Part shown: piece by piece, positions 1 through 56,639 of the stretch
Layout: each line of letters opens with the position of its first letter
How positions within the stretch are numbered: the stretch's first letter is position 1
Origin: Oscillospiraceae bacterium
GTDB lineage: Bacteria > Bacillota > Clostridia > Oscillospirales > Oscillospiraceae
DNA length: 64,000 nt
Assembly: GCA_015067765.1 (NCBI GenBank)
Contig: SVLV01000004.1
Coordinates: 1-64,000 of the forward strand
Reading direction: 5' to 3'
Program-made: the position numbers and the translations under genes
Notes under the pieces: model-generated
The model's input: the letters and a program-made list of their open reading frames with translations, nothing else
Told to the model about the DNA's origin: nothing
The model's database searches: none

Positions 1-20
1 TTTCTTAGGAGGAGCAAATA

Positions 21-137
21 ATGCGGGGAGATGTCAGCTTTACCTTTCTGCATCGTGTGGAAGAAGTGGAACTGAATATAGCCGATGGGCGATGGCAGTC
101 TGCGTTGGCATTGGCATTGACCTTGCCAAGCGTGTAG
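21..137 (+). pseudogene. Truncated 5' end of a small accessory gene
   Basis: A strong ribosome-binding sequence (AGGAGGAG at 7-14) precedes an ATG at 21 and 38 codons ending at TAG 135-137. The peptide ends in ALALALTLPSV, which looks like the beginning of a motif rather than a natural C-terminus. The stop lies where the sequence changes into integrase-like code, so I read this as the front of a small gene cut by a deletion. The parent family is not identified with certainty. It could still be expressed as a 38-residue peptide, because the translation signal is good. Confidence 0.4.
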
Positions 138-463
138 CACCGAAAGTGGAGCCGATGGTGGATGGATATGCCGGATTCCTGTTCCTGGACAAGAATGACA
201 GGCCGATGGTTGCACTGCATTGGGAGAAATACCTGCAGCACATTGTCGAGAAGTACAACAAGATCTACCGCATCCAGATGCCCAAAGTAACCCCTCATGT
301 ATGCAGACACACCTTCTGTTCCAATATGGTGAAATCCGGAATGAACCCTAAGACATTGCAGTATATCATGGGTCATTCGGACATCAGCGTGACGCTGAAT
401 GTCTACACCCATGTGCAGTTCGATGACGCACAGGCGGAGCTGCTCCGAGTAGCGGAAGCCTAA
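92..463 (+). pseudogene. Tyrosine recombinase (integrase) C-terminal remnant
   Basis: The frame encodes about 105 residues matching the C-terminal catalytic half of Tn916-type tyrosine integrases. Visible are a KVEPMVDGYAGF block, the box HVCRHTF (His-x-x-Arg), GHSDISVTL with the second histidine, and the nucleophile region NVYTHV. The N-terminal arm-binding and core-binding domains and the first catalytic arginine are missing. Recognisable integrase sequence begins near base 140; the codons before it belong to another gene read in a different frame. It therefore cannot be an active recombinase and marks the scar of a lost integrative element. No att repeat was recognised. Bases 464-646 hold no further gene that I can support. 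Confidence 0.85.
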
Positions 464-646
464 ACCCTCCGTTGGTACAGAACGATTATTTACCAATGGA
501 TTTACCAATATTGCAGGAAAAAGCATGAGAAAATACGGGAAGATTTGAGAAGATATCCCGAAAACAAAGAAACATGAAAATGCCGAAAACCCAGCAATAT
601 TGGGCATTTGAGAAGAAATACAAGACTTATATGGAGATATAAGACG

Positions 647-1144
647 ATGATAAAAATACTATTCGTCTGCCACGGCAATATTTGCCGCAGTCCCATGGCG
701 GAATATGTGATGAAGGATCTGGTGGCCCGGGCAGGCCGGAGCGAAGAATTCTATATTGAATCTGCAGCCACCAGCAGCGAGGAGATCGGCAATCCGGTCT
801 ATCCTCCGGCGCGGCGGAAGATGGCACAGCATGGCATTGATTGCAGCGGTCATCAGGCCCGGCGAATGACCCGGGCAGATTATGACCGGTGGGATCTGCT
901 GATCGGTATGGACCGGGAAAATCTGCGGGGAATGCAGCGGCATTGCGGCGGCGATCCGGAGGGGAAGATCCATCTGTTGATGGAGTTCACCGACCGCCCA
1001 CAGGCGCAAGTAGCCGATCCCTGGTTTACCGGCGACTTTGATGCCACCTGGCGGGATGTGAATGCCGGCTGCCGGGGCCTGCTGGCCTGGCTGGACCGGG
1101 CGGCAGACTTTGCGCGCAGCAAGGAAAGAAGAAAGAGGAACTGA
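647..1144 (+). CDS. Low-molecular-weight protein-tyrosine/arginine phosphatase
   Basis: A 165-residue protein of the LMW-PTP family, cytoplasmic enzymes that remove phosphate from protein tyrosine or arginine through a cysteinyl-phosphate intermediate. The N-terminus carries the signature FVCHGNICRSPMAE, i.e. the C-x5-R-S phosphate loop with Cys8 and Arg14, and the general-acid loop is seen as ADPWFTGD near residue 120. The ATG at 647 is preferred over an in-frame start 13 codons upstream, because it begins right before the catalytic loop as in the family and has GGAG at 633-636. The next gene starts 7 bases after the stop, so the two are probably cotranscribed. The substrate cannot be inferred from context. 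Confidence 0.88.
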   Translation: MIKILFVCHGNICRSPMAEYVMKDLVARAGRSEEFYIESAATSSEEIGNPVYPPARRKMAQHGIDCSGHQARRMTRADYDRWDLLIGMDRENLRGMQRHCGGDPEGKIHLLMEFTDRPQAQVADPWFTGDFDATWRDVNAGCRGLLAWLDRAADFARSKERRKRN

Positions 1145-1151
1145 GAAACCG

Positions 1152-1979
1152 ATGAATATCATTGAGATCAAAGACTTTGCCGATCCGGCGCTGGATATCT
1201 ATGCCCGCCTGACGGAGAACCAGCTGGTAAACCGGGCAGACCCCGACCATGCCATGTTTGTAGCGGAGAGCCCGCTGGTGATCGGCCGGGCGCTGGATGC
1301 CGGCTGTGTTCCCATCTCGTTTTTGATGGAGCGTAAGCATGTGGAGGGGCGGGGGCGCGAGGTGCTGGAACGCTGCGCTCCGGATATCCCTGTCTATGTA
1401 GCGGATCTGGAGGTGCTGACCCAACTGACAGGTTTTCATCTGACCCGCGGTATGCTGTGTGCCATGTATCGGCCGAAGCTGCCCACGGTGCAGGAAGTTT
1501 GTACTGGAGCGCGGCGGATTGCGGTGTTGGAAAACATTATGAATCCCACCAATATTGGAGCCATCTTCCGTTGTGCAGCGGCGCTGGGTATGGATGCCGT
1601 GCTGCTGACCGAGGCGGGCAGTGATCCGCTGTATCGCCGGGCCAGCCGGGTCAGCATGGGAAATGTGTTCCTGGTCCCCTGGACCTATCTGCCCCAGGGA
1701 GAGGATTGGACCCAGGTGCTTCATGAATTGGGGTTTGTCACGGTGGCCATGGCTCTGCGGGACGACTCCCTGCAGCTGCATGACCCGCGGTTGATGCAGC
1801 AGGAGAAACTGGCCGTGGTGCTGGGAACAGAGGGGGACGGTTTGGCAGGGGATACCATCGCCCAGTGCGACTACACGGTGAAGATCCCCATGTCTCACGG
1901 GGTGGACTCCCTGAATGTGGCGGCAGCCAGCGCGGTAGCCTTCTATCAGTTGGGCCTTATGAGCCAGATGGGAGAGTAA
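1152..1979 (+). CDS. TrmH/SpoU-family RNA 2'-O-methyltransferase
   Basis: A 275-residue SAM-dependent RNA methyltransferase of the SpoU (SPOUT) class, which methylates the 2'-OH of a ribose in tRNA or rRNA. The three family motifs are visible: NIMNPTNIGAIFRCAAALG (motif 1, catalytic Arg), LGTEGDGL (motif 2) and IPMSHGVDSLNVAAA (motif 3, knot). The N-terminal ~110 residues form the RNA-binding substrate domain typical of RlmB/TsnR-like members. The start at 1152 has GAGGAA some 12 bases upstream; a longer in-frame extension overlaps the phosphatase gene and lacks family similarity. It is probably cotranscribed with the phosphatase and ends at the hairpin at 1991. The target nucleotide cannot be assigned. 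Confidence 0.85.
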   Translation: MNIIEIKDFADPALDIYARLTENQLVNRADPDHAMFVAESPLVIGRALDAGCVPISFLMERKHVEGRGREVLERCAPDIPVYVADLEVLTQLTGFHLTRGMLCAMYRPKLPTVQEVCTGARRIAVLENIMNPTNIGAIFRCAAALGMDAVLLTEAGSDPLYRRASRVSMGNVFLVPWTYLPQGEDWTQVLHELGFVTVAMALRDDSLQLHDPRLMQQEKLAVVLGTEGDGLAGDTIAQCDYTVKIPMSHGVDSLNVAAASAVAFYQLGLMSQMGE

Positions 1980-1990
1980 AAACAATAAGA

Positions 1991-2021
1991 AACTGCTTCG
2001 GCTATGCCGAAGCAGTTTTTT
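1991..2021 (+). terminator. Rho-independent terminator, possibly bidirectional
   Basis: A perfect 12-bp stem (1991-2002 with 2006-2017, loop TAT) is followed by a run of T on the plus strand. It sits between the convergent methyltransferase gene and the last gene of the transporter array, and on the minus strand it is followed by a T-rich stretch, so it may serve both. Confidence 0.85.
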
Positions 2022-2028
2022 GTTGAGG

Positions 2029-2985
2029 TTATTCTTCGGGGGATTCCACGGCAGGGACCGCATCTTTCTTGGCCTGTACCACCTTGGTGACTTGCCAGAT
2101 ACCGACGATGGCCAAAATGGAACCGGTGACGGACATAGCGTTGATGGGCTCATGCAGGAAGATGATGCCCAGCAACGTGGCGGTGATGGTGCTGACAGCG
2201 CCCACAGAGGCGGACTTGATGACCGGCAGATAGATGAAGGAGTAGTTGACCAGCGTATTGCCCACGATGGAGCAGAACACGGACATCAATGCGGTGGAGA
2301 CCAGGAACTCCGGCTCCTTCAGCGCATTGGTGTAGTGGCTGAGATCCCCACCCACACTGATCAGCGCTACAATGGTGAACACTAGTGCACCGGCACCGAA
2401 GGTAACGTAGGTACGCTCCCAGGCGGTGAAGTCCGCCGCCCACTTGCGGTTAATGATACGGTTACCGGTGCTGACTAGACAGGCGAGAGCCAGAATGACA
2501 ATGCCGATCGTAGTGACAGAACCCATCTCACTGTTGGCCAGAGTGATGAGGATCACACCGACCACCGGGAAAAAACTGAAGAAGACCTGACGGCGGGTAG
2601 GATACTCTTTCAGAAGGATCGCTGCAGCGACCAAAGCCAGGACGGGTACCAAGGTCAGAGCGAGGCTGGCAAAGGAACTGTTGGTGTAATAGACGCCGCT
2701 GCTTTCGCAGTAATAGAACAGAGGCATCATAAAGCCGATGATCAGCAGATGCCGAATATTTTTGCCCTTCAGAGAGACCAGAGACGGTTTGAAGAGCAGC
2801 ATAATGCTCATGATCACAAAGGTCAATATAAAGCGGATGGACAACTGCACAGCGGGAATAGCGTACTGCTGGGCGGTGCGGGTCAGCAGATAGCTGAAGC
2901 CCCAGAGGAAATTGCCCGTAAGGCAGCAGACCATGGCGATATAGTATTTTTTCTTATCCTGAACGACGCTGACGTTATTGCTCAT
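2029..2985 (-). CDS. EamA/DMT-family transporter, array copy 1 (distal)
   Basis: A 318-residue integral membrane protein with the two EamA repeats (about ten hydrophobic helices) of the drug/metabolite transporter superfamily; members usually export or exchange small metabolites. Shared landmarks of the array are present: GNFLWGFSYLLTRTAQQ in helix 1, VYYTNSSFASL near residue 90, LKEYPTRRQVFFSF, LANSEMG, LHEPINAMS and GIWQV near the end. Its N-terminus (MSNNVSVVQDKK) is nearly identical to that of the next gene, so these two are the most recent duplicates. It is the last gene of the seven-gene minus-strand run, 33 bases after its neighbour and followed by the hairpin at 1991. The substrate is unknown. 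Confidence 0.88.
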   Translation of the reverse strand: MSNNVSVVQDKKKYYIAMVCCLTGNFLWGFSYLLTRTAQQYAIPAVQLSIRFILTFVIMSIMLLFKPSLVSLKGKNIRHLLIIGFMMPLFYYCESSGVYYTNSSFASLALTLVPVLALVAAAILLKEYPTRRQVFFSFFPVVGVILITLANSEMGSVTTIGIVILALACLVSTGNRIINRKWAADFTAWERTYVTFGAGALVFTIVALISVGGDLSHYTNALKEPEFLVSTALMSVFCSIVGNTLVNYSFIYLPVIKSASVGAVSTITATLLGIIFLHEPINAMSVTGSILAIVGIWQVTKVVQAKKDAVPAVESPEE

Positions 2986-3018
2986 GATAGAATCGTCCTT
3001 TCTGTAACGGAGAAGTTG

Positions 3019-3987
3019 TTATTCACCGTCCGCCTGAGCGGGCAGAGCTTCGGAGGATTCGGCACTTTTCTTGGGAGGAACCACCTTGGTAACCTGCCAG
3101 ATACCGATGATGGCCAGCGTGGAGCCGATGACAGAGATAGCGTTAATGGGCTCGTGCAGGAAGACGATACCCAGCACCGTGGCGGTGATGGTGCTGATGG
3201 TGCCGATAGAAGCGGACTTGACCACCGGCAGGTAGATGATGGAATAGTTTACCAGCGTGTTGCCTGCGATGGAGCAGAAGATAGCCATCAGGAAGGTGGA
3301 GATCAGGAAGTTGGGCTCTTTCAGTGCATTCATATACACGGAGAGGTCACCCTTTACGGTGATCAGAGCCACAACGGTGAACACCAATGCGCCGGCGGCG
3401 AAGCAGGCATAGGTACGCTCAAAGGCGGAGTAGTCAGAGGCCCACTTGCGGTTAAGGATACGGTTGAAGGTGCTGACCAGGCAGGCGATGGCAAGGATGA
3501 AGATGCCGATGGAGGTGATGGACCCCATAGTACTGTTGGCCAGCGTGATGCAGATGACACCGGCAATGGGGAAGAAACTGAAGACCGTCTGACGGCGGCT
3601 GGGATATTCCTTCAGGAATAGGGCGCCGGCGATCAGTGTCAAAACAGGAACCAGAGAGAGGCACAGACTGGCGAAAGAACTGTTGGTGTAATAGACGCCG
3701 CTGCTCTCCAGATAATAGAAGACGGGCATCAGGAAACCAATGATCACCAGATGACGGATCGGCTTACCCTTCAGGGAAATCAGCGAGGGTTTGAAGAGCA
3801 GCATGATGTTCATCAGGATGAAAGTGATCAAAAAGCGGCAGGACAACTGTACAGCGGGGATAGCGTACTGCTGGGCAGTGCGGGTCAGCAGATAGCTGAA
3901 GCCCCAGAGGAAGTTGCCCATAACACAGCAGAACATAGCGACATAGTATCGTTTCTTATCCTGAACGACACTGACATTATTGCTCAT
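3019..3987 (-). CDS. EamA/DMT-family transporter, array copy 2
   Basis: A 322-residue ten-helix DMT transporter, closest to copy 1 along its whole length. It keeps VYYTNSSFASLCLS, LKEYPSRRQTVFSF, LANSTMG, LHEPINAIS and GIWQVTKVV. The ATG at 3987 is chosen because the protein then starts like copy 1 (MSNNVSVVQDKK) and AGAAAGGATCC lies upstream; a 52-codon extension overlaps the preceding gene and has no family character. Thirty-one bases separate it from copy 3. The charged C-terminal tail differs from its paralogs. Function beyond membrane transport of a small molecule is not determined. Confidence 0.88.
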   Translation of the reverse strand: MSNNVSVVQDKKRYYVAMFCCVMGNFLWGFSYLLTRTAQQYAIPAVQLSCRFLITFILMNIMLLFKPSLISLKGKPIRHLVIIGFLMPVFYYLESSGVYYTNSSFASLCLSLVPVLTLIAGALFLKEYPSRRQTVFSFFPIAGVICITLANSTMGSITSIGIFILAIACLVSTFNRILNRKWASDYSAFERTYACFAAGALVFTVVALITVKGDLSVYMNALKEPNFLISTFLMAIFCSIAGNTLVNYSIIYLPVVKSASIGTISTITATVLGIVFLHEPINAISVIGSTLAIIGIWQVTKVVPPKKSAESSEALPAQADGE

Positions 3988-4018
3988 AAGAGAGGATCCT
4001 TTCTGTAACGGGGAGTGA

Positions 4019-4975
4019 TTATTCGTTATCTGCCTGAGCAGGGAGTTCCTCGGCGGGTTTGGACATGCTGGCCATGGAGACCTGCCAGATGCCGAAGAGC
4101 GTAATGGCCACACCGACCAGGGAGATGGCGTTGACCGGCTCACGCAGCAGCAGGATGCCCACCAGCGTGGCGACGGGAGTGGGCAGTGTGCCGATGGCGG
4201 TCAGCTTGATAACCGTCAGGCGGCCGGAGGCGAAGTTCACCAGCAGGCTGGAACCGATGGAGCAGCAGATGCTCAAAGCCAGCGTGCAGGCCACAAAGGA
4301 GGGCTGAGACATGGCGTACATAAAGGGCTCCAGACTACCCTTGGTCTCCACCAGTGCGGTGGCGAGGGTGCCGGCAGAGCAGATCAGCAGGATGAAGTAA
4401 GTACGCTCAAAGGGAGTGTAGCTCTGAGAGACCTGGCGGCTGATGATCTGGTTGGCGCAGGAGGCCAAACAGGCCAGGGCGATGATCACAACACCGATGG
4501 CCTGCACGGCGCCCATAGCGCTGTTGGCCAAAGTGATGATGATCACGCCGACCACAGGGAAGATGCTGAAGAAAATCTGCTTTTTGGAGGGGTACTCCTT
4601 CAGCAGTATGGCGGCGGCGATGATGGACAGCACCGGCACCACGGACATAGCCAGACTGGTGAAGGAACTGTTGGTATAGTAGATACCGGTACTCTCCAGA
4701 ATGTAGTAAATCTCCAGAGAGGCACCCAGCATGACCAGAGGCCCAATCTTCTTGCCCTTGAGATTGAACTGATCCCGCTTGAAACCGAAGATCAGAATGT
4801 TCAGCAGGGCAAAGGCAATGATGAAACGGAGGGCCAGCTGCACGGAGGGGATGGCGGAGCGCTGGGCAACACTGGTAAACAGGTAGCTGAAGCCCCAGAG
4901 CAGATTGCCGATCACACAGGCGGCGATACCGATCAGGGTCTCCTTGCGGGTAAAGTTGTCTTTCAGTTTAGCCAT
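4019..4975 (-). CDS. EamA/DMT-family transporter, array copy 3
   Basis: A 318-residue DMT transporter with two EamA halves. It carries GNLLWGFSYLFTSVAQ, IYYTNSSFTSLAMS, LKEYPSKKQIFFSI, LANSAMG, LREPVNAIS and GIWQVSMA. It is more divergent from copies 1 and 2 than they are from each other; the second-half helix pair contains a distinctive FASGRLTVIKLTAIGTL segment. Gaps are 31 bases to copy 2 and 20 to copy 4, consistent with one transcript. No enzyme or regulator is interleaved, so its substrate cannot be read from context. Confidence 0.87.
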   Translation of the reverse strand: MAKLKDNFTRKETLIGIAACVIGNLLWGFSYLFTSVAQRSAIPSVQLALRFIIAFALLNILIFGFKRDQFNLKGKKIGPLVMLGASLEIYYILESTGIYYTNSSFTSLAMSVVPVLSIIAAAILLKEYPSKKQIFFSIFPVVGVIIITLANSAMGAVQAIGVVIIALACLASCANQIISRQVSQSYTPFERTYFILLICSAGTLATALVETKGSLEPFMYAMSQPSFVACTLALSICCSIGSSLLVNFASGRLTVIKLTAIGTLPTPVATLVGILLLREPVNAISLVGVAITLFGIWQVSMASMSKPAEELPAQADNE

Positions 4976-4995
4976 AGGTTCCAGTTCCTTTCCAA

Positions 4996-5949
4996 TCAGT
5001 TGTTGTTATCGGGAGCGGAGACTGCCTCCGCGGGGACCTCTTTGGGGGCTTTGTTGACCTGCCAGATACCGATCAATGTCAGCGCGGCGCCCAGGATGGA
5101 CATGGCATTGAAGGGCTCATGCAGGAATACCACGCCAACCACCAGCGAACAGGTGGTGGACAGGGCGCTGATGGCAGAAATCTTAACAACGGGCAGAACA
5201 CCAAAAGAATAGTTTACCAGCATGTCTGCCACGATGGAGCAAAAAACGCACAGAACCACTGTGGAGATCATAAAGGAGGGCTGGGAGAGTGCATAGGCAT
5301 AGGCGGACGGAGCATCCTCCACCGTGAGAAAAGCGGCGACAGTGAAGGAGACTGCACCGACCAGTTGTGTGGAAAATGTGCGCTCAAAAACCGTAAACAT
5401 GGAGGCGCAGACCCGGTTCAGGATGCGACCGGCAGCACCTGCAACGCAGCACAGCAGCAGAAGTACTACACCGATGGTGGTGATGGTGCCCATCTGACTG
5501 TTGGCCAGAGTGATCAGCACAACGCCGAGAAAAGGCAGAAAACTGAAAATGATCTGATGGCGTGTCGGATGCTCTTTCAGAAAGACAGCGGCCATCAGCA
5601 TAGCCAGCAGGGGGTACAGAGCCAGTACAACAGCGGCAAAAGAACTGTTGGTATAGTAGACACCGTTGCTCTCCAGCACATGATAGATCGGGAGAATCAG
5701 ACCATATGCCAAAAGCTTCCAAAGACGGCTGCCACCCTGCAGCTTTAAAGTGCCGGGTTTGAGGATCGCTGGTACGCACATCATCAGGAATGAGAGGATG
5801 AAACGAATGGATAGCTGCACGATGGGTTCAGCACTCTGCTGGGCCACACGGGTAAACATATAGCTGGTGCCCCAGATCAGTTGACCGGTAATGCAGGCGG
5901 CAAAGGCAAACTGTGTGCGATTGCGGTCATTGAGAAGATTTTTGGGCAT
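4996..5949 (-). CDS. EamA/DMT-family transporter, array copy 4
   Basis: A 317-residue DMT transporter: GQLIWGTSYMFTRVAQQ, VYYTNSSFAAVVLAL, LKEHPTRHQIIFSF, LANSQMG, LHEPFNAMS and GIWQVNK are visible. The ATG at 5949 has GAGG five bases upstream; a TTG eight codons earlier overlaps the stop of copy 5 and is less likely. It shares the rare RHQ variant of the loop motif with copy 5, suggesting those two form a subgroup. The intergenic gaps are 20 bases on each side. Expected in the cytoplasmic membrane; substrate unknown. Confidence 0.87.
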   Translation of the reverse strand: MPKNLLNDRNRTQFAFAACITGQLIWGTSYMFTRVAQQSAEPIVQLSIRFILSFLMMCVPAILKPGTLKLQGGSRLWKLLAYGLILPIYHVLESNGVYYTNSSFAAVVLALYPLLAMLMAAVFLKEHPTRHQIIFSFLPFLGVVLITLANSQMGTITTIGVVLLLLCCVAGAAGRILNRVCASMFTVFERTFSTQLVGAVSFTVAAFLTVEDAPSAYAYALSQPSFMISTVVLCVFCSIVADMLVNYSFGVLPVVKISAISALSTTCSLVVGVVFLHEPFNAMSILGAALTLIGIWQVNKAPKEVPAEAVSAPDNNN

Positions 5950-5969
5950 AGAGACCTCGTTTCTTTGAA

Positions 5970-6977
5970 TCAATCATTCTCCTCAGCGGGGGTGGATTCG
6001 GCGGGAGTGGTCTCTTTTCCAACAATTACTCCGGCAGCTTTCTGTGCGGCAGGATCCAGCTTCATCTCACTGTTGGGCACCTTGTTGACCTGCCAGATAC
6101 CGATCAGGGCGATGCAGCAGCCGAACAGGGACAGGGCATTGACCGGCTCATGCAGGAAGACCACGCCGACCACCAGAGAGCAAATGGTGGACATGGCGCT
6201 GATGGAGGAGACCTTCACAATGGGTAGGACACCATAGGAATAGTTGACCAGCAGCTCACCGGCCACCGTGCACATGACGCACAGGAACAGAGTGGAGAAG
6301 ATGAAGGAGGGCTGAGACAGCGCGTGTACATAGGCGGCGGGCGCATCTTCCACCGTGACAAGGGCAACGATCGTAAAGATAATGGCACTGTTGAGCACAT
6401 TGAAGTAGTTACGCTCGAAAGCCGTAAACCTACGGGCCATGTAACGGCTCAAAATACGGCCGAAGGCACCCACCAGGCTGCACAGCAGCAGGAACACCAC
6501 GCCGATGGCCTGAATGGCACCCATCTGGCTGTTGGCCAAGGTGATCATGATCACGCCGATGATGGGCAGGAAACTGAAGATCACCTGATGGCGGGTGGGG
6601 AACTCTTTCAGGAAGATGGCGGCCAGGGCAAGGGCCAGAATGGGAAGAAGGGACAGTGCGATAGCGGCGAAGGAACTATTGGTATAGTAGATGCCGCTGC
6701 CCTCCAGGAAATGGTAGACCGGCAGGAACAGACTGCCTGCCAGCAGGATCAGCAGACGGTGGCCCTTCAGATTCAGGCGGCTGGGACGGAAGATGACCGG
6801 AAGGGTCATCAGAATAGCGGAGATGATAAAACGGATGGATAGCTGCACCATGGGAGGAGCACTTTCCTGGGCGATGCGGGTGAACATGAAGCTAAAGCCC
6901 CACAACATCTGACCGGTGATGCAGGCAGCCAGAGCAAGATGGGTCTTGTCCAGGCGGGAAAAGAGTTTTTTAAACAT
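5970..6977 (-). CDS. EamA/DMT-family transporter, array copy 5
   Basis: A 335-residue DMT transporter, the longest of the array because of a C-terminal tail of about 35 residues rich in Ala, Lys, Thr and Glu. The core has GQMLWGFSFMFTRIAQE, IYYTNSSFAAIALSL, LKEFPTRHQVIFSF, LANSQMG, LHEPVNALS and GIWQVNKV. Together with copy 4 it forms the subgroup with RHQ in the first cytoplasmic loop motif. It is separated from copy 6 by 18 bases, the shortest spacing in the run. Role: inner-membrane transport of an unidentified small molecule. Confidence 0.87.
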   Translation of the reverse strand: MFKKLFSRLDKTHLALAACITGQMLWGFSFMFTRIAQESAPPMVQLSIRFIISAILMTLPVIFRPSRLNLKGHRLLILLAGSLFLPVYHFLEGSGIYYTNSSFAAIALSLLPILALALAAIFLKEFPTRHQVIFSFLPIIGVIMITLANSQMGAIQAIGVVFLLLCSLVGAFGRILSRYMARRFTAFERNYFNVLNSAIIFTIVALVTVEDAPAAYVHALSQPSFIFSTLFLCVMCTVAGELLVNYSYGVLPIVKVSSISAMSTICSLVVGVVFLHEPVNALSLFGCCIALIGIWQVNKVPNSEMKLDPAAQKAAGVIVGKETTPAESTPAEEND

Positions 6978-6995
6978 AGCGGTGCAGTCCTTTCC

Positions 6996-7940
6996 TTATT
7001 CGTCGCTGTTGGTTGCGGAGGGGATGGGATCTTTCGATTTATCGGGACGGCTGACCTGCCAGATACCGTACAGGGTCAGCACAGAGCCGAACAGGGACAT
7101 GGCATTGACGGGTTCGCGCAGCAGCACGAAACCGGCCACCACACCGACCACTGTGGAGATGGTGTTGATGGCAGAGATGGTTACGACGGGCAAAACACTG
7201 TAGGAGTAGTTCACCATGGTCTGTGCCACCAGCGAGCAGAGGATGCACAGAGCCAGCGTGGACAGGAGGAAGGAGGGCTGGGTCAGCGGATAGATAAAGA
7301 CACTCAGGTCACCCTTCACAGAGATCAAAGCGGTGGTGGTAAAGCAGATGCTGCCGAAAAACAGAAGGCTGTAGGTACGGGTGAAGGCGGTGAATTCCGG
7401 GGCAATTTTCCGGCCCACCAAACGGCTGAAGATGGTAGCCACGCAGCAGAGCAGCGTGACCAGAATACCGATCAGATCTACAACGCCCATCTGATTGTTG
7501 GCCAAAGTGATAAAAATCACGCCTACGATGGGGAAGAAACTGTAGATCACCTGCCGGCGGGAGGGGTACTCCTTCAGGAAAATGGCAGCGCCGATCAGGC
7601 AGAAGACCGGCAGGACGGCCATCACCAGGCTGGCAAAGGAACTGTTGGTGTAGTACACGCAGAGACTTTCGGTGTAGAACACTGCCACAGCAGCCAACGA
7701 GGTCACCGGCAGATGCCACAGATGGGGGACCTTCAGCTGGAGCTTGGCCTTGCCCGACAGGACCAGAAGATTCACCAGCACAAAAGCAATCAGGAAACGC
7801 AGGGACAACTGCACGGCAGGGGGGGCACTCTGCTGGGCGATACGGGTGAGCATATAGCTGACGCCGTAGAAAATGTTGCCGATGGTGCAACCGGCCAGTG
7901 CCAGCATCTGCGGGTCTTTCCCCTGCAGAAGATTCTTCAT
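6996..7940 (-). CDS. EamA/DMT-family transporter, array copy 6
   Basis: A 314-residue DMT transporter with GNIFYGVSYMLTRIAQQ, VYYTNSSFASLVMAV, LKEYPSRRQVIYSF, LANNQMG (Asn for Ser in the array motif), LREPVNAMS and GIWQVSR. The N-terminus MKNLLQGKDPQ resembles that of copy 7, as does the tail RPDKSKD, so copies 6 and 7 form the upstream subgroup. Forty bases separate it from copy 7. The start codon has a purine-rich AGAAGG before it. Substrate unknown. Confidence 0.87.
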   Translation of the reverse strand: MKNLLQGKDPQMLALAGCTIGNIFYGVSYMLTRIAQQSAPPAVQLSLRFLIAFVLVNLLVLSGKAKLQLKVPHLWHLPVTSLAAVAVFYTESLCVYYTNSSFASLVMAVLPVFCLIGAAIFLKEYPSRRQVIYSFFPIVGVIFITLANNQMGVVDLIGILVTLLCCVATIFSRLVGRKIAPEFTAFTRTYSLLFFGSICFTTTALISVKGDLSVFIYPLTQPSFLLSTLALCILCSLVAQTMVNYSYSVLPVVTISAINTISTVVGVVAGFVLLREPVNAMSLFGSVLTLYGIWQVSRPDKSKDPIPSATNSDE

Positions 7941-7980
7941 GGAAGCGCCTTCTTTCTTTGGTGTTTAAAATATTTTGAGA

Positions 7981-8904
7981 TTATGCTTTTTCTTTGTCGG
8001 GACGATTGACCTGCCAGATACCGAACAGAGTCAGGGCAGAACCGGTCAGGGACAGGGCATTGACCGGCTCGTGCAGGATAAAGATGCCGGCCAGCACGCC
8101 GATTACGGTGGACAGGGTGCTCATAGCGGACAGTTTCACAACGGGGAGCTTGCTGTAGGAGAAGTTCACCAAAATCTGTCCCACTACGGAGCACAGCACG
8201 CACAGGGCCAGCGTGGAGGCCAGGAAGGAGGGCTGAGTAAGAGGATACAGGAACGCGCCCACATCCCAGCTGACAGAATTGAGTGCCGTAATGCTGAAGC
8301 AGACAGAGCCGGCAAACAGAGTGGCATAACTACGCTCAAAGGTGCTGTAGTCGTTGGCATATTTGCGGCAGAGGATACGGCTGGTGCAGCTGACCAGGCA
8401 GCAGAGAATCATAACGGCAATGCCGATGGGGCCCACCACACCCATGTCGCTGTTGGCCAGGGTGATCAGAATCACGCCGATTACAGGGCAAAAACTGAAA
8501 ATGACCTGCCGGCGAGTGGGATGTTCCTTTAGGAAGATGGCGGCGCCCACCAGAGAAATTACCGGCATGATGGAGAGCACAAGACTTGCAAAAGAACTGT
8601 TGCTATAGTACACGCCGAGACTCTCCAAATAGTAGATCGCCACAACAAACAGGGTGATGACCACCAGAGGAAGAATGGGGCGGCCCTTCAGGGAGGTGCG
8701 GTTTTTCTTGTTCAGCAGCATGAAACTCATGATAATAAAGGAGATGCTGAACCGCAGAGCCAACTGCACATCGGGGCTGGCAGTCTGCTGGGCAACACTG
8801 GTGAACAGAAAACTCAGACCATAAAACATCTGGCCGACGAAAGAGGCCAGCAGGCCAATGGTCTGATCATTTTTTCCCTGCAGGGAAGAGGCGAACTTAT
8901 TCAT
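7981..8904 (-). CDS. EamA/DMT-family transporter, array copy 7 (promoter-proximal)
   Basis: A 307-residue DMT transporter, first gene of the run. It shows GQMFYGLSFLFTSVAQQ, VYYSNSSFASLVLS (Ser for Thr), LKEHPTRRQVIFSF, LANSDMG, LHEPVNALS and GIWQVNRPDK. The ATG at 8904 is supported by CTGGAGG seven bases upstream on the minus strand; a 75-codon upstream extension runs through AT-rich promoter-like DNA and is not coding. A sigma-A-like promoter candidate lies at 8932-8961. The seven genes look like an in-place amplification from one ancestor. Confidence 0.88.
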   Translation of the reverse strand: MNKFASSLQGKNDQTIGLLASFVGQMFYGLSFLFTSVAQQTASPDVQLALRFSISFIIMSFMLLNKKNRTSLKGRPILPLVVITLFVVAIYYLESLGVYYSNSSFASLVLSIMPVISLVGAAIFLKEHPTRRQVIFSFCPVIGVILITLANSDMGVVGPIGIAVMILCCLVSCTSRILCRKYANDYSTFERSYATLFAGSVCFSITALNSVSWDVGAFLYPLTQPSFLASTLALCVLCSVVGQILVNFSYSKLPVVKLSAMSTLSTVIGVLAGIFILHEPVNALSLTGSALTLFGIWQVNRPDKEKA

Positions 8905-8931
8905 AAAACGGCCTCCAGAACTTCCATAAAA

Positions 8932-8961
8932 TTTATATAAATAGGTGTAAAAAGTGCGCAA
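8932..8961 (-). promoter_or_regulatory. Candidate promoter of the seven-transporter array
   Basis: On the minus strand TTGCGC (8956-8961) and TATAAA (8932-8937) are 18 bases apart, within AT-rich DNA just upstream of copy 7. The -35 match is only moderate. No operator or riboswitch was recognised in 8905-9183, which otherwise also holds the sigK upstream region. Confidence 0.4.
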
Positions 8962-9183
8962 AAAAAATATCCCGTTTGCCACATTGTAACAGGGGTGGAG
9001 CGGGTTGTAAAATATCGAAATTTCATATCTCTTATTGAGTTTAATCAATAGGTTGAGGCGGATGAAAGGTGACCGACTGTAAGGGAAAACGTGCCCTGCT
9101 GTGGGAAGCAAAAAGCTTTGAAACGGCAAAGGAATAGGGACTTCCTTCTGTCACATAGGATGGCGGCAAGGAGGATTGATCAT

Positions 9184-9882
9184 ATGCTTTCTGCAGCCCT
9201 GCTGTTGTTGACCAACAGTTTATTCTTTTCCCTGCAACTGGCAGGCAGTCCCAGTTCCTTTCCCAAACCGTTGACACCGCAGGAGGAGATGGAATGTCTG
9301 GCCCGTTGGGCCGCCGGAGATTTGGAGGCTCGTAATACACTGGTGGAGCATAATTTGCGCTTGGTGGCACACATTATCAAGAAATATTACACGCAGGTGG
9401 ATGATCAGGAGGATCTGGTCTCCATTGGTACCATTGGACTGATCAAGGCAGTAAATACATTTCGGGCTGACCGCAATATTCGTTTGGCAACCTACGCATC
9501 CCGGTGTATTGAAAATGAGATCCTGATGCATTTCCGCGCACAAAAAAAGCTTCAGGGGACCGTATCCCTGTCGGATACGATCGAATCTGACTCCGATGGC
9601 AATGCCTTGTACCTGATGGATGCGGTAGGGACAGAGGATACCATGCTGGAGGACCTGCAGGATCAGGAAGATTGCCGCTTGATCCGCAAGCTGGTGCGGC
9701 AATGCCTGACAGAGCGGGAGGCGGAGATCATCCGCCGACGTTATGGATTGGAAGGCTATCCCATGCAGACACAAAAGCAGATTGCGCAGCAGTACGGGAT
9801 CAGCCGCAGCTATGTATCACGGATCGAAAAGCGGGCTCTGGAGAAGCTGGAAGAGGCCCTGCGAGAGAGGGATGACAGGTAA
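9184..9882 (+). CDS. sigK: Sporulation sigma factor SigK (pro-sigma-K)
   Basis: A 232-residue sigma-70-family factor that directs late mother-cell transcription during sporulation. The N-terminus has the hydrophobic pro-sequence (LSAALLLLTNSLFFSLQ) that anchors inactive pro-SigK to membrane until SpoIVFB cleaves it, followed by region 2 (LVEHNLRLVAHIIKKYY, EDLVSIGTIGLIKAV, LATYASRCIENEILM) and region 4 (LTEREAEIIRRRYGL, ISRSYVSRIEKRALEKL). The ATG at 9184 has AAGGAGG nine bases upstream. The gene is contiguous, with no skin-type element interrupting it. By family knowledge it would be SigE-dependent, but I could not find a convincing SigE promoter here. Confidence 0.92.
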   Translation: MLSAALLLLTNSLFFSLQLAGSPSSFPKPLTPQEEMECLARWAAGDLEARNTLVEHNLRLVAHIIKKYYTQVDDQEDLVSIGTIGLIKAVNTFRADRNIRLATYASRCIENEILMHFRAQKKLQGTVSLSDTIESDSDGNALYLMDAVGTEDTMLEDLQDQEDCRLIRKLVRQCLTEREAEIIRRRYGLEGYPMQTQKQIAQQYGISRSYVSRIEKRALEKLEEALRERDDR

Positions 9883-13029: not shown

Positions 13030-15507
13030 TTACTGGATGGAGATCACCTGATAACCGGCATCCTCCACGGTTTTGCGCAGCAGCTCATCACTTACTTCTG
13101 CGCTGAGGGTAACGGTAGCGGTCTTGGCGGCCAGGTCCACCGTGGCGCTGACACCCTCCAGTGCATTGAGTACGGTCTCCACACGGCCGGAGCAGTGGGT
13201 GCACATCATGCCTTCGATGGTCATCTTCTTGGTCATAGTTATGTCCTCCTTGTTTGTTATTTCGGTTTCAGTTTCCGGATTGGAGTGCGGCAGCACGGGA
13301 GCTTTCCAGCCACGCAGGCGCAGGGCGTTGGAGACCACGCATACGGAACTGAGACTCATGGCGGCCGCAGCGATCATGGGGTTAAGCGTAATGCCAAAGG
13401 CGGGGAACAGGACACCGGCAGCTACAGGGAGGCCGATGGAGTTATAGAAAAATGCCCAGAACAGATTCATGCGGATGTTAGCCAGCACGGCCTCCGACAG
13501 GCGAAGGGCCGAGACGATATCCCACAGGGAACTGCGCATCAGCACCACATCGGCCGACTCCATGGCGATGTCTGTGCCGGCGCCAATGGCCAGTCCCACA
13601 TCAGCCCGGGCCAGCGCCGGGGCATCGTTGATGCCGTCACCCACCATAGCCACCAGCTTGCCCTCTGCCTGCAGTTTTTCCACGCAGGCAGCTTTCTCCT
13701 GAGGCAGTACCTGAGCCAATACCCGCTCCACACCTACCTGACGGGCGATGGCCTGAGCAGTCCGCTGGTTGTCACCGGTCAGCAGCACCACCTGTCGGCC
13801 CATCTCCTGCAGGGCGGCAATAGCAGCAGCACTGTCGGGTTTTACGGTGTCGGCTACGGCGATGAGGCCCAGCAGGCGGGTGTCATCGGCAAAATACAGG
13901 GGAGTCTTACCCTCCTCGGCCAGTTCCTCGCCGGCCTGGAGAAGGGGGCCTTCCTCCAACTGCAGCAGGCGACGGTTTCCGGCGCGGATGATCCGACCCT
14001 CCAGCTGTGCCTGCACACCGCCGCCGGGGATGGCGGAGAAATCGGTGACCGACAGAAGCGGGATGCCCTGTTCCCGGGCAGCCTCGCCGATCGCCAGAGA
14101 AAGCGGGTGCTCTGAGGGCTGTTCCACCGAAGCCGCAATCTGCAGCAGATCCCGCTGACAGATCCCCTCACTGCAGAGAATATCGGTGACCCGGGGTTTT
14201 CCTTCGGTGACCGTGCCGGTTTTATCCAGCACCACTGTCTGCACATGGTGCAGCTGCTCCAGACTTTCTGCGGACTTGATCAGAATGCCGGATTGGGCGG
14301 CCTTTCCGGTGCCCACCATGATGGCCACGGGGGTGGCCAGACCCAGCGCGCAGGGACAGGAGATCACCAGAACAGCGATACCGATGGACAGGCAGAACCG
14401 CAGATCCTGACCGCCTGCAAAATACCACAACAGGGCAGCCGTTACGGCGATGACGATGACTACGGGGACGAAGATGCCGCTGATCTTGTCAGCCAGACGG
14501 GAGATGGGAGCCTTGGAGGAAGCGGCCTCCTCCATCAGGCGGATGATTTGGGACAGGGTGGTGTCATCTCCCACGCGGATGGCCTGTAGTTCCAGATAAC
14601 CGGAGCGGCTGACGGTGGCAGAGGTGACAGAATCCCCCACATGCTTCTCCACCGGCAGGCTTTCGCCGGTGATGGCGGACTCATCCACCGTGGCGGAACC
14701 GGAGGTGACGATACCATCCACCGGAATTTTGCCGCCCTGGCGGACAATCACCGTCTCGCCTTGCAGGATCTGTGCCACGGGGACGGTCAATTCCCGGCCG
14801 TCTCGGCGGACTACAGCGGAATCGGGCGCCAGTGCCAGCAGAGCGGCGATGGCGCCGGTGGTCTTGCCCCGGGAACGCTCCTCCAGGAACTTGCCCACGG
14901 TGACCAGGGCCAGGATCATACCGGCAGATTCAAAATACAGGTCAGGCATACCGGAAATCTGTCCGCTGGCCAAAAGGCCCAACTCGATGAGACTGTATAC
15001 CAGACCGGCTGCAGCGCCCAAGGCCACCAGAGAATCCATGTTGGGGCTGCCCTGCAGCAGCCGACGGAATCCCACGGTAAAATAGGTCCGGTTCAGAATC
15101 AGAATCGGGATCACCAGCACCAGTTGCAAAGCGCCTGCCAGCAACGGTGCTCTGTGCAGCTGCGGCGGCTGCGGCAGACCCAGCATATGGCCCATGCTGA
15201 GATAGAACAGGGGCAGCAGGAACAGCAGGGACCAGAGGAGACGCCGCTTCATCCGCTGCAACGAGGAGTCCGTATCCGGAACGGTGGTGGCCTCAGAAGC
15301 CAGTTTGGCCCCATAGCCGGCGGCCTCCACGGCGGCCATAATATGAAGGGCGGTGACGAGGGACTCGTCATAAGTAACTACCATGCTGCCCAGCATCAAA
15401 TTCACGGCGGCGCTCTCTACACCCTCCAGTTGGTTGACAGCTTTTTCCACATGGGCTGAGCATGCAGCGCAGGTCATGCCTGTGACAGCAAATTTTTCGT
15501 GCATCAT
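13030..15507 (-). CDS. copA: Copper-exporting P1B-ATPase with N- and C-terminal HMA domains
   Basis: An 825-residue Cu+ efflux ATPase. An N-terminal heavy-metal domain has GMTCAACS (Cys13, Cys16); the membrane core shows [12 protein letters not shown] (CPC metal site), [11 protein letters not shown] (phosphorylated Asp), TGESLPVEK and [11 protein letters not shown]. After the last helices a 68-residue second HMA domain with [12 protein letters not shown] follows, resembling a CopZ chaperone. The join is preceded by AGGAGG (13245-13250) and an in-frame ATG at 13236, so the last domain could also be made separately. Start at 15507 is supported by GAGGTG eight bases upstream. It lies 10 bases after csoR and shares its promoter. 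Confidence 0.93.
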
Positions 15508-15517
15508 GGAGAACACC

Positions 15518-15811
15518 TCACTTCATCAGCTTCTGCAAAGTTGCCACCAATTCCTCCACCACATTCTCATCCCCCTGACGGATCCCCTCGGCGACGCAGG
15601 TGTGAATGTGGTTGGACAGAAGTTCCCGGCTGAAACTGTTGAGGGCGGCGGTGGCGGCGGAAACCTGCACCAGAATATCGGGGCAGTAGGCATCCTTCTG
15701 CAGCATCTCCCGCAGACCGCGGATCTGCCCCTCCACACGGCTCAGCCGGTTGTCCAGCCTTCGCAGTTCCTCCGGTGTGCGTACTTTTTTCTTTTCGCAG
15801 ATACAATCCAT
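15518..15811 (-). CDS. csoR: Copper-sensing repressor CsoR
   Basis: A 97-residue all-helical repressor of the CsoR/RcnR family. The Cu(I) ligand set C-H-C is present as Cys43, His68 and Cys72, with exactly the 25- and 4-residue spacing of characterised CsoR proteins. Other family blocks are [17 protein letters not shown] and [16 protein letters not shown]. Copper binding is expected to release it from DNA and switch on its own operon with copA. The ATG at 15811 has GGGAGG upstream, and that ribosome site overlaps an operator half. A longer open frame upstream runs through spoVAE and is not real. Confidence 0.93.
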
Positions 15812-15815
15812 ATTA

Positions 15816-15874
15816 ATACCTCCCGGGGGTATATTTCTTGTGCCTATAATATACCCCCGGTGGGTATTTGTCAA
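15816..15874 (-). promoter_or_regulatory. csoR-copA promoter with two CsoR operators
   Basis: On the minus strand TTGACA (15869-15874) and TATTAT (15846-15851) are 17 bases apart. The spacer is occupied by the dyad ATACCCCCGGTGGGTAT (15851-15867), and a second dyad ATACCTCCCGGGGGTAT (15816-15832) sits between the start of transcription and the ribosome-binding site. Both fit the G/C-tract inverted repeat known for CsoR. Their centres are 35 bases apart, so repressor could block both polymerase binding and clearance. Confidence 0.85.
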
Positions 15875-15878
15875 GAAA

Positions 15879-16235
15879 CTATCGCTTGTGATTGGGGCGA
15901 AACAGAAGGGCGGCCAACAGCGCAAAGAAAATGGCAGCAGTGATTCCACCGGCGGTGGAAGTAAGACCACCTGTGAGGGCGCCCAGCAGACCATTCTCCG
16001 CGATGGCGCGGACGACTCCTTTGGCCAGTGCAGCCCCAAATCCCAGCAGAGGGACGGTGGCACCGGCTCCGCCCCATTGGGACAGATACGGGAAGATGCC
16101 CAGTGCCTGCAGCAGCACTCCGGTCACCACATAACCGGTGAGGATACGGGCCGGAGTCAGGCGGGTCTTGTCGATGAGCAGCTGCCCAACAGCACAAAAC
16201 AAACCGCCGCAGAGAAAGGCATTCAGGTATTCCAT
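15879..16235 (-). CDS. spoVAE: Stage V sporulation protein AE
   Basis: A 118-residue membrane protein with four hydrophobic segments, matching SpoVAE, part of the inner-membrane SpoVA channel that moves dipicolinic acid and calcium into and out of the spore. Family features are the N-terminal MEYLNAFLCGGLFCAVGQLL and the glycine-rich GALTGGLTSTAGGITAA near the end. It starts three bases after spoVAD stops, so the two are translated together. Its stop lies only five bases from the csoR promoter -35 box. The short length is normal for the family. Confidence 0.88.
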   Translation of the reverse strand: MEYLNAFLCGGLFCAVGQLLIDKTRLTPARILTGYVVTGVLLQALGIFPYLSQWGGAGATVPLLGFGAALAKGVVRAIAENGLLGALTGGLTSTAGGITAAIFFALLAALLFRPNHKR

Positions 16236-31946: not shown

Positions 31947-32216
31947 AAAAAGGCGCCTGTCCCGGCGGGACAAGCGCCTGAAACTGCCGCAGGGCAGTTG
32001 CCCCGCCTCGGCCGTGCGAGCCAAGTTATAACCTGCACCACTTAAGCAGGTGGGTTGTCTCCAGCTTGCTTTATTGCTTCCAACGTCCAGCCGCAGACGG
32101 CAGCCGGGAGGCCTGCAAACCACATACTGATCCGACATCCCCTATAACGAAATGTGAGGATAAAAAAGACCCGACACGCACCGCGCAGGGCGATCAGACA
32201 GCAGAGCTGTGAGATC
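31947..32216 (-). ncRNA. ssrS: Structured non-coding RNA, probable 6S RNA
   Basis: The 465 bases between the foldase and DUF1292 genes hold no ORF but a promoter-structure-terminator unit on the minus strand. TATACT (32223-32228) would start transcription near 32216. A closing stem joins 32185-32191 with 32000-32006 and 32177-32181 with 32014-32018, around a ~160-base central region with apical hairpins, the 6S RNA plan. A 5' hairpin (32192-32216), a 7-bp hairpin and a terminator (31951-31963 with 31967-31979, then T-run) flank it. Assignment to 6S is by shape and size, not by alignment. Confidence 0.55.
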
Positions 32217-42362: not shown

Positions 42363-42391
42363 TTGACAAGTAGTCCGGTCCCGGATATAAT
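42363..42391 (+). promoter_or_regulatory. Consensus promoter of rplJ-rplL
   Basis: A perfect TTGACA (42363-42368) and a perfect TATAAT (42386-42391) with a 17-base spacer. Confidence 0.92.
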
Positions 42392-42397
42392 ATTGGA

Positions 42398-42510
42398 TGC
42401 GTTCCAAAGACAGCAGGTGGCTTCTGCCGTAAATCCTGCCGAGGATGGCGAATCTTTTTGATTGCTGTACCGTCCTTGTGTCTTTTGGCACAAGGACGGT
42501 TTTCCTTTTT
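42398..42510 (+). promoter_or_regulatory. L10 leader with attenuator
   Basis: The leader contains AAAGACAGCAGGTGGC and CCTGCCGAGG, signatures of the Firmicutes ribosomal L10 leader bound by L10(L12)4. It ends in an attenuator hairpin, 42470-42480 paired with 42489-42499, followed by TTTTCCTTTTT. Excess L10 would favour termination. Confidence 0.85.
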
Positions 42511-42548
42511 GAACGCACCTACAAATCTCATGGAGGTGAAATCAAAGA

Positions 42549-50600: not shown

Positions 50601-50636
50601 AAAAGAAAGGTTGAGCACAGCTCAACCTTTCTTTTT
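50601..50636 (+). terminator. Terminator of cca, overlapping the convergent gene end
   Basis: A 16-bp stem (50601-50616 with 50620-50635), loop ACA, A-run left and T-run right. Its right arm contains the stop codon and last codons of the minus-strand transporter gene. Confidence 0.88.
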
Positions 50637-51509
50637 CAGTTTGTTCCAGAGGGAGGACCAGTCCAGTTCCATTAGCAGAAGGCTGAACATCATCAGTGCC
50701 GCGCCGATATAGCCGCGGACCCCCAGCACCTCATTGGCGAAGAGATAGGCAACAAAGGCGGAGAACAGGGGCTCCAAAGTAAAGATCAGACCCACATGGG
50801 AGGCACTGGTGTACTGCTGCTGCACCGTCTGTACCACGAAAGCCACACCAGAGCAGAAGATACCCAAAAACAGAGCTGCGGCCCAGATGCCCGGGGTGGG
50901 AGGCAGAATGGGCTTTTCCAACAGGAAGGACAGAATCAGAGTAACGACACCGACCACGCCCAACTGCAGGATACCCATCTGCAGAGGATCCACATCCGGC
51001 TTGCGGACGGCCCGGTCCGTAATCACCAGGTCAATGGCATAGAAAACAGCGACACCCAAGCAGATGATGTCACCCAGTGCCGGACGGAACTGCTCGTTCA
51101 AAGTCAGCAGAGCAAGACCAATGGTACAGAGAACCAAAGCAACACCCAGCCGGGGGGAGGGCTTTTGCCGGGAGATGAGAAATTCCAGCACGGGAGTAGT
51201 CACCACCGGCAGTGCACAGATGAAGCCTGCATTGGAGATAGAGGTATAGAGCAGACCGTAACTGCAGCAGATATAGACCACCACCAGGCAGAGCCCCACC
51301 AGGACAGCATACTTCAAAGTGGAGCGGGAGATGTTGCGCATCCTCCTATGGTAAATGCCGCCCAGCACAAAAAAGGCCAAAAGAAAGCGGAAGGCATTGA
51401 GATTCATGGGCGGCATGTGCTCCAGGCACATATCTGCCAAAAGGTAGGAGATCCCCCAAAAACCGGTCACCATGACCAAAAGGAGATCTGCTTTTTTCTG
51501 TTTGCTCAA
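50622..51509 (-). CDS. EamA/DMT-family transporter (not part of the array)
   Basis: A 295-residue ten-helix DMT transporter. It has two EamA halves with GFWGISYLLADMCLEHMPP, SISNAGFICALPVVTTPVLE and TLEPLFSAFVAYLFANEVLG, and lacks the YYTNSSFA and GIWQV landmarks of the seven-gene array, so it is a distant relative. A TTG start at 51509 fits GGGAGG nine bases upstream; the GTG three codons earlier lies on top of that site. Its stop is inside the cca terminator. Substrate unknown. Confidence 0.82.
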   Translation of the reverse strand: MSKQKKADLLLVMVTGFWGISYLLADMCLEHMPPMNLNAFRFLLAFFVLGGIYHRRMRNISRSTLKYAVLVGLCLVVVYICCSYGLLYTSISNAGFICALPVVTTPVLEFLISRQKPSPRLGVALVLCTIGLALLTLNEQFRPALGDIICLGVAVFYAIDLVITDRAVRKPDVDPLQMGILQLGVVGVVTLILSFLLEKPILPPTPGIWAAALFLGIFCSGVAFVVQTVQQQYTSASHVGLIFTLEPLFSAFVAYLFANEVLGVRGYIGAALMMFSLLLMELDWSSLWNKLKKKG

Positions 51510-51574
51510 TGAGGTCACCTCCCATCCAGTTTCTTGACCGTATCATACCATGAAGCGGATAAAAAAGGAAGTGG

Positions 51575-55679: not shown

Positions 55680-56600
55680 TCAGTTGTTCTCGGCTGCCTG
55701 ACGGCAGATGGGCAGATTGGTCAAAAATTCCCGCAGAGACAGGAAATGGGGGTTGCGGGCATTTTCCTGCAGGCACATCAGACACAGCGGGACCCGTTTT
55801 TCCGGGAACATGGGGATAGCGGCCACGCGGGAGTAAGCGCCCAGAGATTCCGGACCGATGGTGATGCCCTTGCCGCTGCGGATCAAGGCCATCATGATGC
55901 TGAAGCTGTCGGTACGGTAGAAGTTGCGGGAGGCAAGATTGTGATCCTTGGCCAGCTTCTGCATGGCCAGATCGTCAATGGAACCCTTGGGACCGGTGAT
56001 GATGCTGCAACCTCGCAGATCCTCAAAGGTCAGGCTGCTGAGGCCTGCCAGCGGGGAAGTGGGGGACATGAGTGCGCACTGCCGCTCCCGGAACAGCTCC
56101 ACGATGCAGAACTCCGACAGGTCGGCAGACTGCAGGATGGGGGAGGGAGGCAGACGGTCAATGACAAAGTCCACGCGATTCTGTCGCAGGGATTCCAAAG
56201 GATTGCCGTTGATATCCATATTGGAAAAAGTGATTTCAAAGCCGCTCTGGTTGTGGTAGAACTCCATGGTCTGATCAAAGATGCCGGTGGAGTGCGTGCG
56301 GAAGCCAAGGCCGAGCCGCAGATGGACCAGCTGCTTGTCCTCCGTGCTGCCCAGAAATTTTTCCTGAAACTGATCCCAGGATTCCATCAGAATGGCAGCT
56401 TCCCGGCAGAAGTTTTCGCCGTCCGGCGTCAGAGTGACACCCTGGGGCGTGCGCAGAAAGAGAGTTTTCTGCAATTCCTGCTCCAGCGTTTTGATCTGCA
56501 GGGAGAGGGCCGGCTGGGAGATATAGATCTGCTCAGCAGCTTTGGAGAAGCTCTGATGCTTTTCCACTGCCAGGGCATAACGAAGCTGAACAATTGTCAT
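55680..56600 (-). CDS. LysR-family transcriptional regulator
   Basis: A 306-residue LTTR. The winged helix is at the N-terminus (SFSKAAEQIYISQPALSLQI, KTLEQELQKTLFLRTPQGV); the effector domain with two lobes follows. It is divergent from the first alanine dehydrogenase gene with 144 bases between starts. A T-N11-A box lies just downstream of its own promoter, suggesting autorepression. Its likely targets are the two ald genes. The co-inducer is unknown, perhaps alanine or pyruvate-related. Confidence 0.9.
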   Translation of the reverse strand: MTIVQLRYALAVEKHQSFSKAAEQIYISQPALSLQIKTLEQELQKTLFLRTPQGVTLTPDGENFCREAAILMESWDQFQEKFLGSTEDKQLVHLRLGLGFRTHSTGIFDQTMEFYHNQSGFEITFSNMDINGNPLESLRQNRVDFVIDRLPPSPILQSADLSEFCIVELFRERQCALMSPTSPLAGLSSLTFEDLRGCSIITGPKGSIDDLAMQKLAKDHNLASRNFYRTDSFSIMMALIRSGKGITIGPESLGAYSRVAAIPMFPEKRVPLCLMCLQENARNPHFLSLREFLTNLPICRQAAENN

Positions 56601-56624
56601 AAACGAACACCTCCTGCGAGGGAT

Positions 56625-56639
56625 ATAACTTTTTCATAT
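56625..56639 (-). promoter_or_regulatory. Candidate LysR-type operator
   Basis: ATAACTTTTTCATAT (T-N11-A) lies just past the lysR -10 box and about 64 bases upstream of the likely ald start of transcription. Its reverse complement resembles the element at 58100-58114 before the second ald gene. Confidence 0.5.

Follow-up and report, generated by a model that had tools for sequence, protein, structure and literature searches.

Seven diverged EamA/DMT transporter paralogues in one apparent operon of an Oscillospiraceae genome

Ten-transmembrane-segment (TMS) carriers of the drug/metabolite transporter (DMT) type have been solved for YddG (5i20) and LicB (7b0k and 7paf). Such carriers are usually regarded as functional single chains, and the substrates of EamA/DMT proteins are seldom predictable. 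Here, we analysed a stretch of 64,000 nucleotides (the window) from an Oscillospiraceae bacterium (assembly GCA_015067765.1, contig SVLV01000004.1, positions 1–64,000), in which seven EamA/DMT genes were arrayed on the minus strand (2029–8904). The array proteins were 13–17% identical to YddG and LicB, and by profile comparison LicB, of the choline importer type, was the closest relative with a solved structure (E 4.9e-8). The locus differed from these systems in that seven paralogues were found in one apparent operon. We consider a spread of specificities the likeliest use of the array, whose products would be co-expressed carriers that have probably diverged to transport different small metabolites.

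The seven genes were intact, co-directional and tightly packed, with 307–335 codons each. In transcription order they encoded copy 7 (7981–8904, 307 aa), the first gene of the apparent operon, copy 6 (6996–7940, 314 aa), copy 5 (5970–6977, 335 aa), copy 4 (4996–5949, 317 aa), copy 3 (4019–4975, 318 aa), copy 2 (3019–3987, 322 aa) and, as the last gene, copy 1 (2029–2985, 318 aa). The intergenic gaps were 40, 18, 20, 20, 31 and 33 bases in the same order, no other gene was interleaved, and every start was preceded by a purine-rich stretch, a potential ribosome-binding site. The open reading frame coordinates thereby agreed with a first-pass annotation of this DNA, which had described a minus-strand transporter array with gaps of 18–40 bases. 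The same annotation had proposed a single operon, and this agreed with the gene packing and with promoter-like and terminator-like sites at the two ends. Upstream of copy 7, a promoter-like site (TTTACA, a 17-nt spacer and TACAAT, with TG ahead of TACAAT; 8983–9011, minus strand) was recognized by consensus match only, and was the sole 10-of-12 match on the minus strand within 1800–9400. Directly after copy 1, a terminator-like hairpin of 13 pairs was followed by a T-rich tail (1990–2018, minus strand); in its extended form (1983–2025) it resembled a plus-strand terminator as well. The remaining minus-strand terminator-like sites had 5–7 pairs and were located within genes.

All seven proteins passed the Pfam EamA model (PF00892) with 76.7–105.1 bits against a cut-off of 28.2, each with two matched stretches. 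The genome encoded 15 EamA proteins (30 half-domain matches), of which seven (14 matches) were in the array. A structure model, made for copy 1 alone, contained ten membrane helices in the DMT arrangement with a predicted local distance difference test (pLDDT) score of 88.2, in line with the ten-helix EamA proteins described earlier. None of the copies reached the equivalog cut-off of NCBIfam TIGR00950 (carboxylate/amino acid/amine transporter; 40.1–71.7 versus 230.2 bits). Loop charge bias, a crude count on hydropathy segments, was alike in all seven and fitted cytoplasmic N and C ends; these counts gave no sign of an inverted topology in some of the copies. An eighth DMT protein in the window (50622–51518) was 21% identical to copy 1 and lacked the sequence landmarks of the array, confirming its exclusion from the array family.

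Pairwise identity among the copies was 42–77%, with the closest pairs being 1/2 (77%), 4/5 (61%) and 6/7 (57%). Over the 21 copy pairs, the silent-site divergence (dS) was 0.81–1.43 and the ratio of replacement to silent divergence (dN/dS) was 0.20–0.55, well below 1 throughout. In the alignments (A1, A2 and A3) copy 2 carried one extra residue before its ATG; the dN/dS analysis was performed with the corrected sequence. Gene conversion was not detected in any of the 21 pairs, as in each of them the most alike silent-site stretch was equalled in 24 or more of 300 shuffles. These values indicate that the array is old and that every copy is kept under purifying selection. Because of the identity range, the high silent divergence and the lack of detectable conversion, the array is neither a recent dosage amplification nor a collapsed repeat. 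The three closest pairs were all gene neighbours, an outcome given by 4 of the 105 ways of picking three pairs, which supports an origin through tandem duplication and the stepwise scheme that had been read from the subgroups 1/2, 4/5 and 6/7. The C-terminal tail LPAQAD was common to copies 2 (3019–3060, minus strand) and 3 (4019–4060, minus strand), though copy 2 was otherwise closest to copy 1; the shared tail is perhaps the trace of an old crossover.

A phylogeny was constructed from 46 proteins (a 42-row clade and four outgroup rows), selected from 80 rows that were left after five rows from loci L106–L114 (Brevibacterium and Elusimicrobia records) had been dropped from 85. One nine-protein clade (support 100/99) united the seven copies with a tandem pair of a congener, genome G009. 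Inside this clade were copy 3 and the groups 1+2 (100/100), 4+5 (100/99) and 6+7 with the G009 pair (100/99). The branching order of the four groups was less well supported (83/81 and 84/82), with copy 3 branching first and the next fork supported by 83/81; the placement of copy 7 relative to copy 6 and the G009 pair was poorly supported (83/18). A topology with the seven copies as a clade excluding G009 was rejected (p-AU 0.0031). The copies, expected to form one clade, therefore do not form an exclusive one, a departure only in the letter, because they share one ancestor that was not shared with the other sampled relatives. The position of the pair implies either that the four types are older than the split from G009 or that G009 received a gene of the 6/7 type.

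The G009 pair (L031; the same proteins were present in L079, an Oscillospiraceae record) resembled the array in its head-to-tail arrangement, its place in the nine-protein clade and both private landmarks. It differed from the array in having two copies only, both of the 6/7 type, and in being flanked by genes for a WYL-domain regulator and a class V aminotransferase, at another locus than that of the array. The G009 genome was 95% complete and contained only these two array-clade genes. A second tandem DMT pair in G009 (G009:C14:306817-308715) was of another subfamily.

Four motifs had been proposed as private to the array, and two of them were private to the nine-protein clade. Among proteins of other genomes scoring at least 100 bits, with identical ones counted once, YY[TS]NSSF and LAN[SN]xMG were each found in all seven copies, both G009 proteins and none of 106 others. 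The other two also occurred elsewhere: GIWQV was present in all copies, both G009 proteins and 14 of 106 others, and LKExP[TS]xxQ in all copies, one of the two G009 proteins and 52 of 106 others, 24 of the 52 coming from a scan that used this pattern.

Four residues (R51, E94, R191 and N247) were invariant across 33 aligned sequences. Five residues kept by most single-copy relatives were lost in all seven copies: E87 (kept in 24/31), Y96 (28/31), Y175 (26/31), F261 (24/31) and F271 (25/31). All five were within helices of the copy 1 model, and milder changes, among them those of G107 and T104 to small residues, ranked as high. Positions 96, 175 and 243 differed between copies by subgroup; at position 243, where 21 of 31 relatives had N, the copies had N, S, D, E or Q. 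The products of a separate duplication, the pair at locus L091, also departed at positions 96 and 175.

We hypothesize that stepwise tandem duplication built the array from a single founder gene, whose DMT subfamily is represented elsewhere by solitary genes. The membrane core would have changed early, in the ancestor, and the copies would then have diverged, each for a different member of one class of small metabolites. The substrate class may be amino-acid-, carboxylate- or amine-like, which is a guess, and transport might be in either direction. A single promoter upstream of copy 7 would express all seven genes together. A more specific version is put forward tentatively: a regulator-free palette of carriers, in which the ancestral core first lost E87, Y96 and Y175 and was later retuned in the individual copies (at positions 96, 175 and 243), with the result that a single promoter might yield graded specificities for related metabolites. 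Should the copies differ in substrate, they would make up a natural set of variants of one transporter fold, encoded in a single operon, that share core residues and have few changed membrane positions; such a set would aid in inferring specificity from sequence among EamA/DMT proteins. Were they redundant, the locus would still be a clear example of a tandem array long retained in a small genome.

Several observations weigh against a spread of specificities or the way in which it would be expressed. Positions 87, 96, 175 and 243 were chosen after looking, from longer lists, and that they line the cavity is presumed. Column entropy in the array correlated with the entropy of the same columns in the relatives (Spearman 0.55 over 291 columns), so that much of the variation may be neutral. 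Promoter-like sites were no commoner in the region than in shuffled sequence (8 found, 5.1 expected), and the promoter upstream of copy 7 is for this reason a proposal. At Rfam gathering scores, no known riboswitch or RNA control was found near the array. Finally, no neighbour family dominated around the relatives: of 93 listed neighbours, 39 were scanned together (the best 25 of 51 families), and among these the commonest family accounted for 3/39 and no single pathway could be named, which makes the substrate class a guess. The scanned neighbours included amino-acid enzymes and amidohydrolases. Ten further or repeated neighbours were scanned separately.

Two other uses rank behind a spread of specificities, and we consider both of them unlikely. 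If all seven proteins carried the same substrate, the array would raise capacity, as the invariance of R51, E94, R191 and N247 and the one promoter-like site for all seven genes would allow. Dosage arrays are, however, usually kept alike, whereas these copies are 42–77% identical with dS of 0.81–1.43, bear no sign of conversion and differ at membrane positions 96, 175 and 243. Of the uses suggested in the first-pass annotation, the spread of substrate specificities was thus retained as the likeliest, and dosage was disfavoured by the divergence of the copies. The copies could also be partly redundant, drifted duplicates of which only some are used. This would fit the correlation of array variation with general tolerance (Spearman 0.55) and the nearly complete G009 genome (95%), which manages with just two array-clade genes at another locus; it fits less well with seven intact frames and dN/dS well below 1 in all 21 pairs.

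Assembly of the products into a hetero-oligomer in which all are needed seems improbable. Co-transcription is likely and all copies have been retained, as such a complex would demand, but ten-helix DMT carriers are usually regarded as single-chain transporters, the charge bias shared by all seven copies (a crude measure) offers no inverted partner of the kind seen in antiparallel pairs, and G009 makes do with two genes of one subgroup. An assembly or binning artefact is more improbable still. The genome is a draft (79% complete, 58 contigs) and no array-bearing close relative was found; yet the copies are too divergent for a mis-resolved repeat, the GC content of the array genes (0.54–0.58) fits the window, and the genes flanking the array, sigK and a SpoU-type methylase gene, were 69–79% and 58–80% identical, respectively, to those of congeners.

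The array was unusual in the sampled genomes, as the first reading of the sequence had anticipated, though it is not proven unique. Over the genus (32 genomes, this one included), the array profile at a threshold of 1e-20 matched in 24 of 32 genomes, and array-clade genes stood side by side elsewhere only in G009. Wider searches used the array profile for the family and the wider alignment A3 for the order, class and phylum, with thresholds of 1e-60, 1e-50, 1e-50 and 1e-45; the 5–6 best candidates per genome were scored, and the samples overlapped. This genome included, matches were found in 25 of 400 genomes of the family, 12 of 394 of the order, 39 of 391 of the class and 83 of 398 of the phylum. 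Outside this genome and G009, these searches gave one match per genome, except in G909, G1108 and G1279, which had two on different contigs. No second array was found in the genus-to-phylum samples (32–400 genomes per rank), the wide searches being strict and confined to best candidates. Six of the seven congeners with at least 19 EamA matches, the six listed in full, never had more than two EamA proteins in a row. Searches of genome contigs with copy 5 alone and of viral contigs with alignment A2 yielded no relative. Literature searches found no paper on a DMT-only array, which does not prove that none has been published. Taken singly, the genes are ordinary representatives of a known family; the array is unusual in its length, age and changed membrane core.

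Solitary relatives from genus to phylum belonged to the same subfamily as the array. The 24 in A3 were 30–44% identical to copy 1 and shared its invariant residues; unlike the array, such relatives occurred as one gene per place, except for two at one place in L091. Within the genus sample of 32 genomes, sigK was detected in 26 and the SpoU-type methylase in 28. No DMT gene of the array's kind flanked any of the 25 other sigK loci or any of the 27 other methylase loci (flanks of 1.5 kb at most, and less where some contigs ended). The array thus occupies a site at which the sampled congeners have no such genes, and the suggestion that arrays might recur beside sigK was not supported. The hydrogenase-like gene that follows sigK here adjoined sigK in 10 of the 25 other loci.

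LysR-like genes were located within 1.5 kb in 13 of 116 relative rows outside this genome, and in 10 of 29 in one subset of loci. The 116 rows were not freed of repeats (the G009 pair was counted three times), some flanks were ended by contig ends, and the eight proteins behind the LysR model all came from one corner of the family; Pfam detected LysR in 8 of 10 neighbours tested. No LysR-like regulator was found beside the array, and the sole LysR-like gene in the window (55683–56633) was approximately 47 kb away. L091, from Clostridiales bacterium MI.1_11, resembled the array in having two nearby copies of the wider family. Its LysR-DMT-LysR-DMT-LysR run (85–5089) differed in that each DMT copy had its own divergent LysR-like gene. 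Two of its three LysR-like genes were confirmed with Pfam, and the duplication was separate from that of the array (support 100/100) and included the regulator.

The Rfam matches in the window were a tRNA, a 6S RNA (31996–32194, minus strand) and a ribosomal protein L10 leader (42386–42514, plus strand), none of them close to the array. The contig started inside an open frame (2–463, plus strand), the end of which matched the C-terminal part of Phage_integrase (tyrosine recombinase), and the contig break at this frame may mark a mobile element. A heavy-metal P-type ATPase gene adjoined a gene for a metal-sensitive transcriptional repressor (13030–16063, minus strand).
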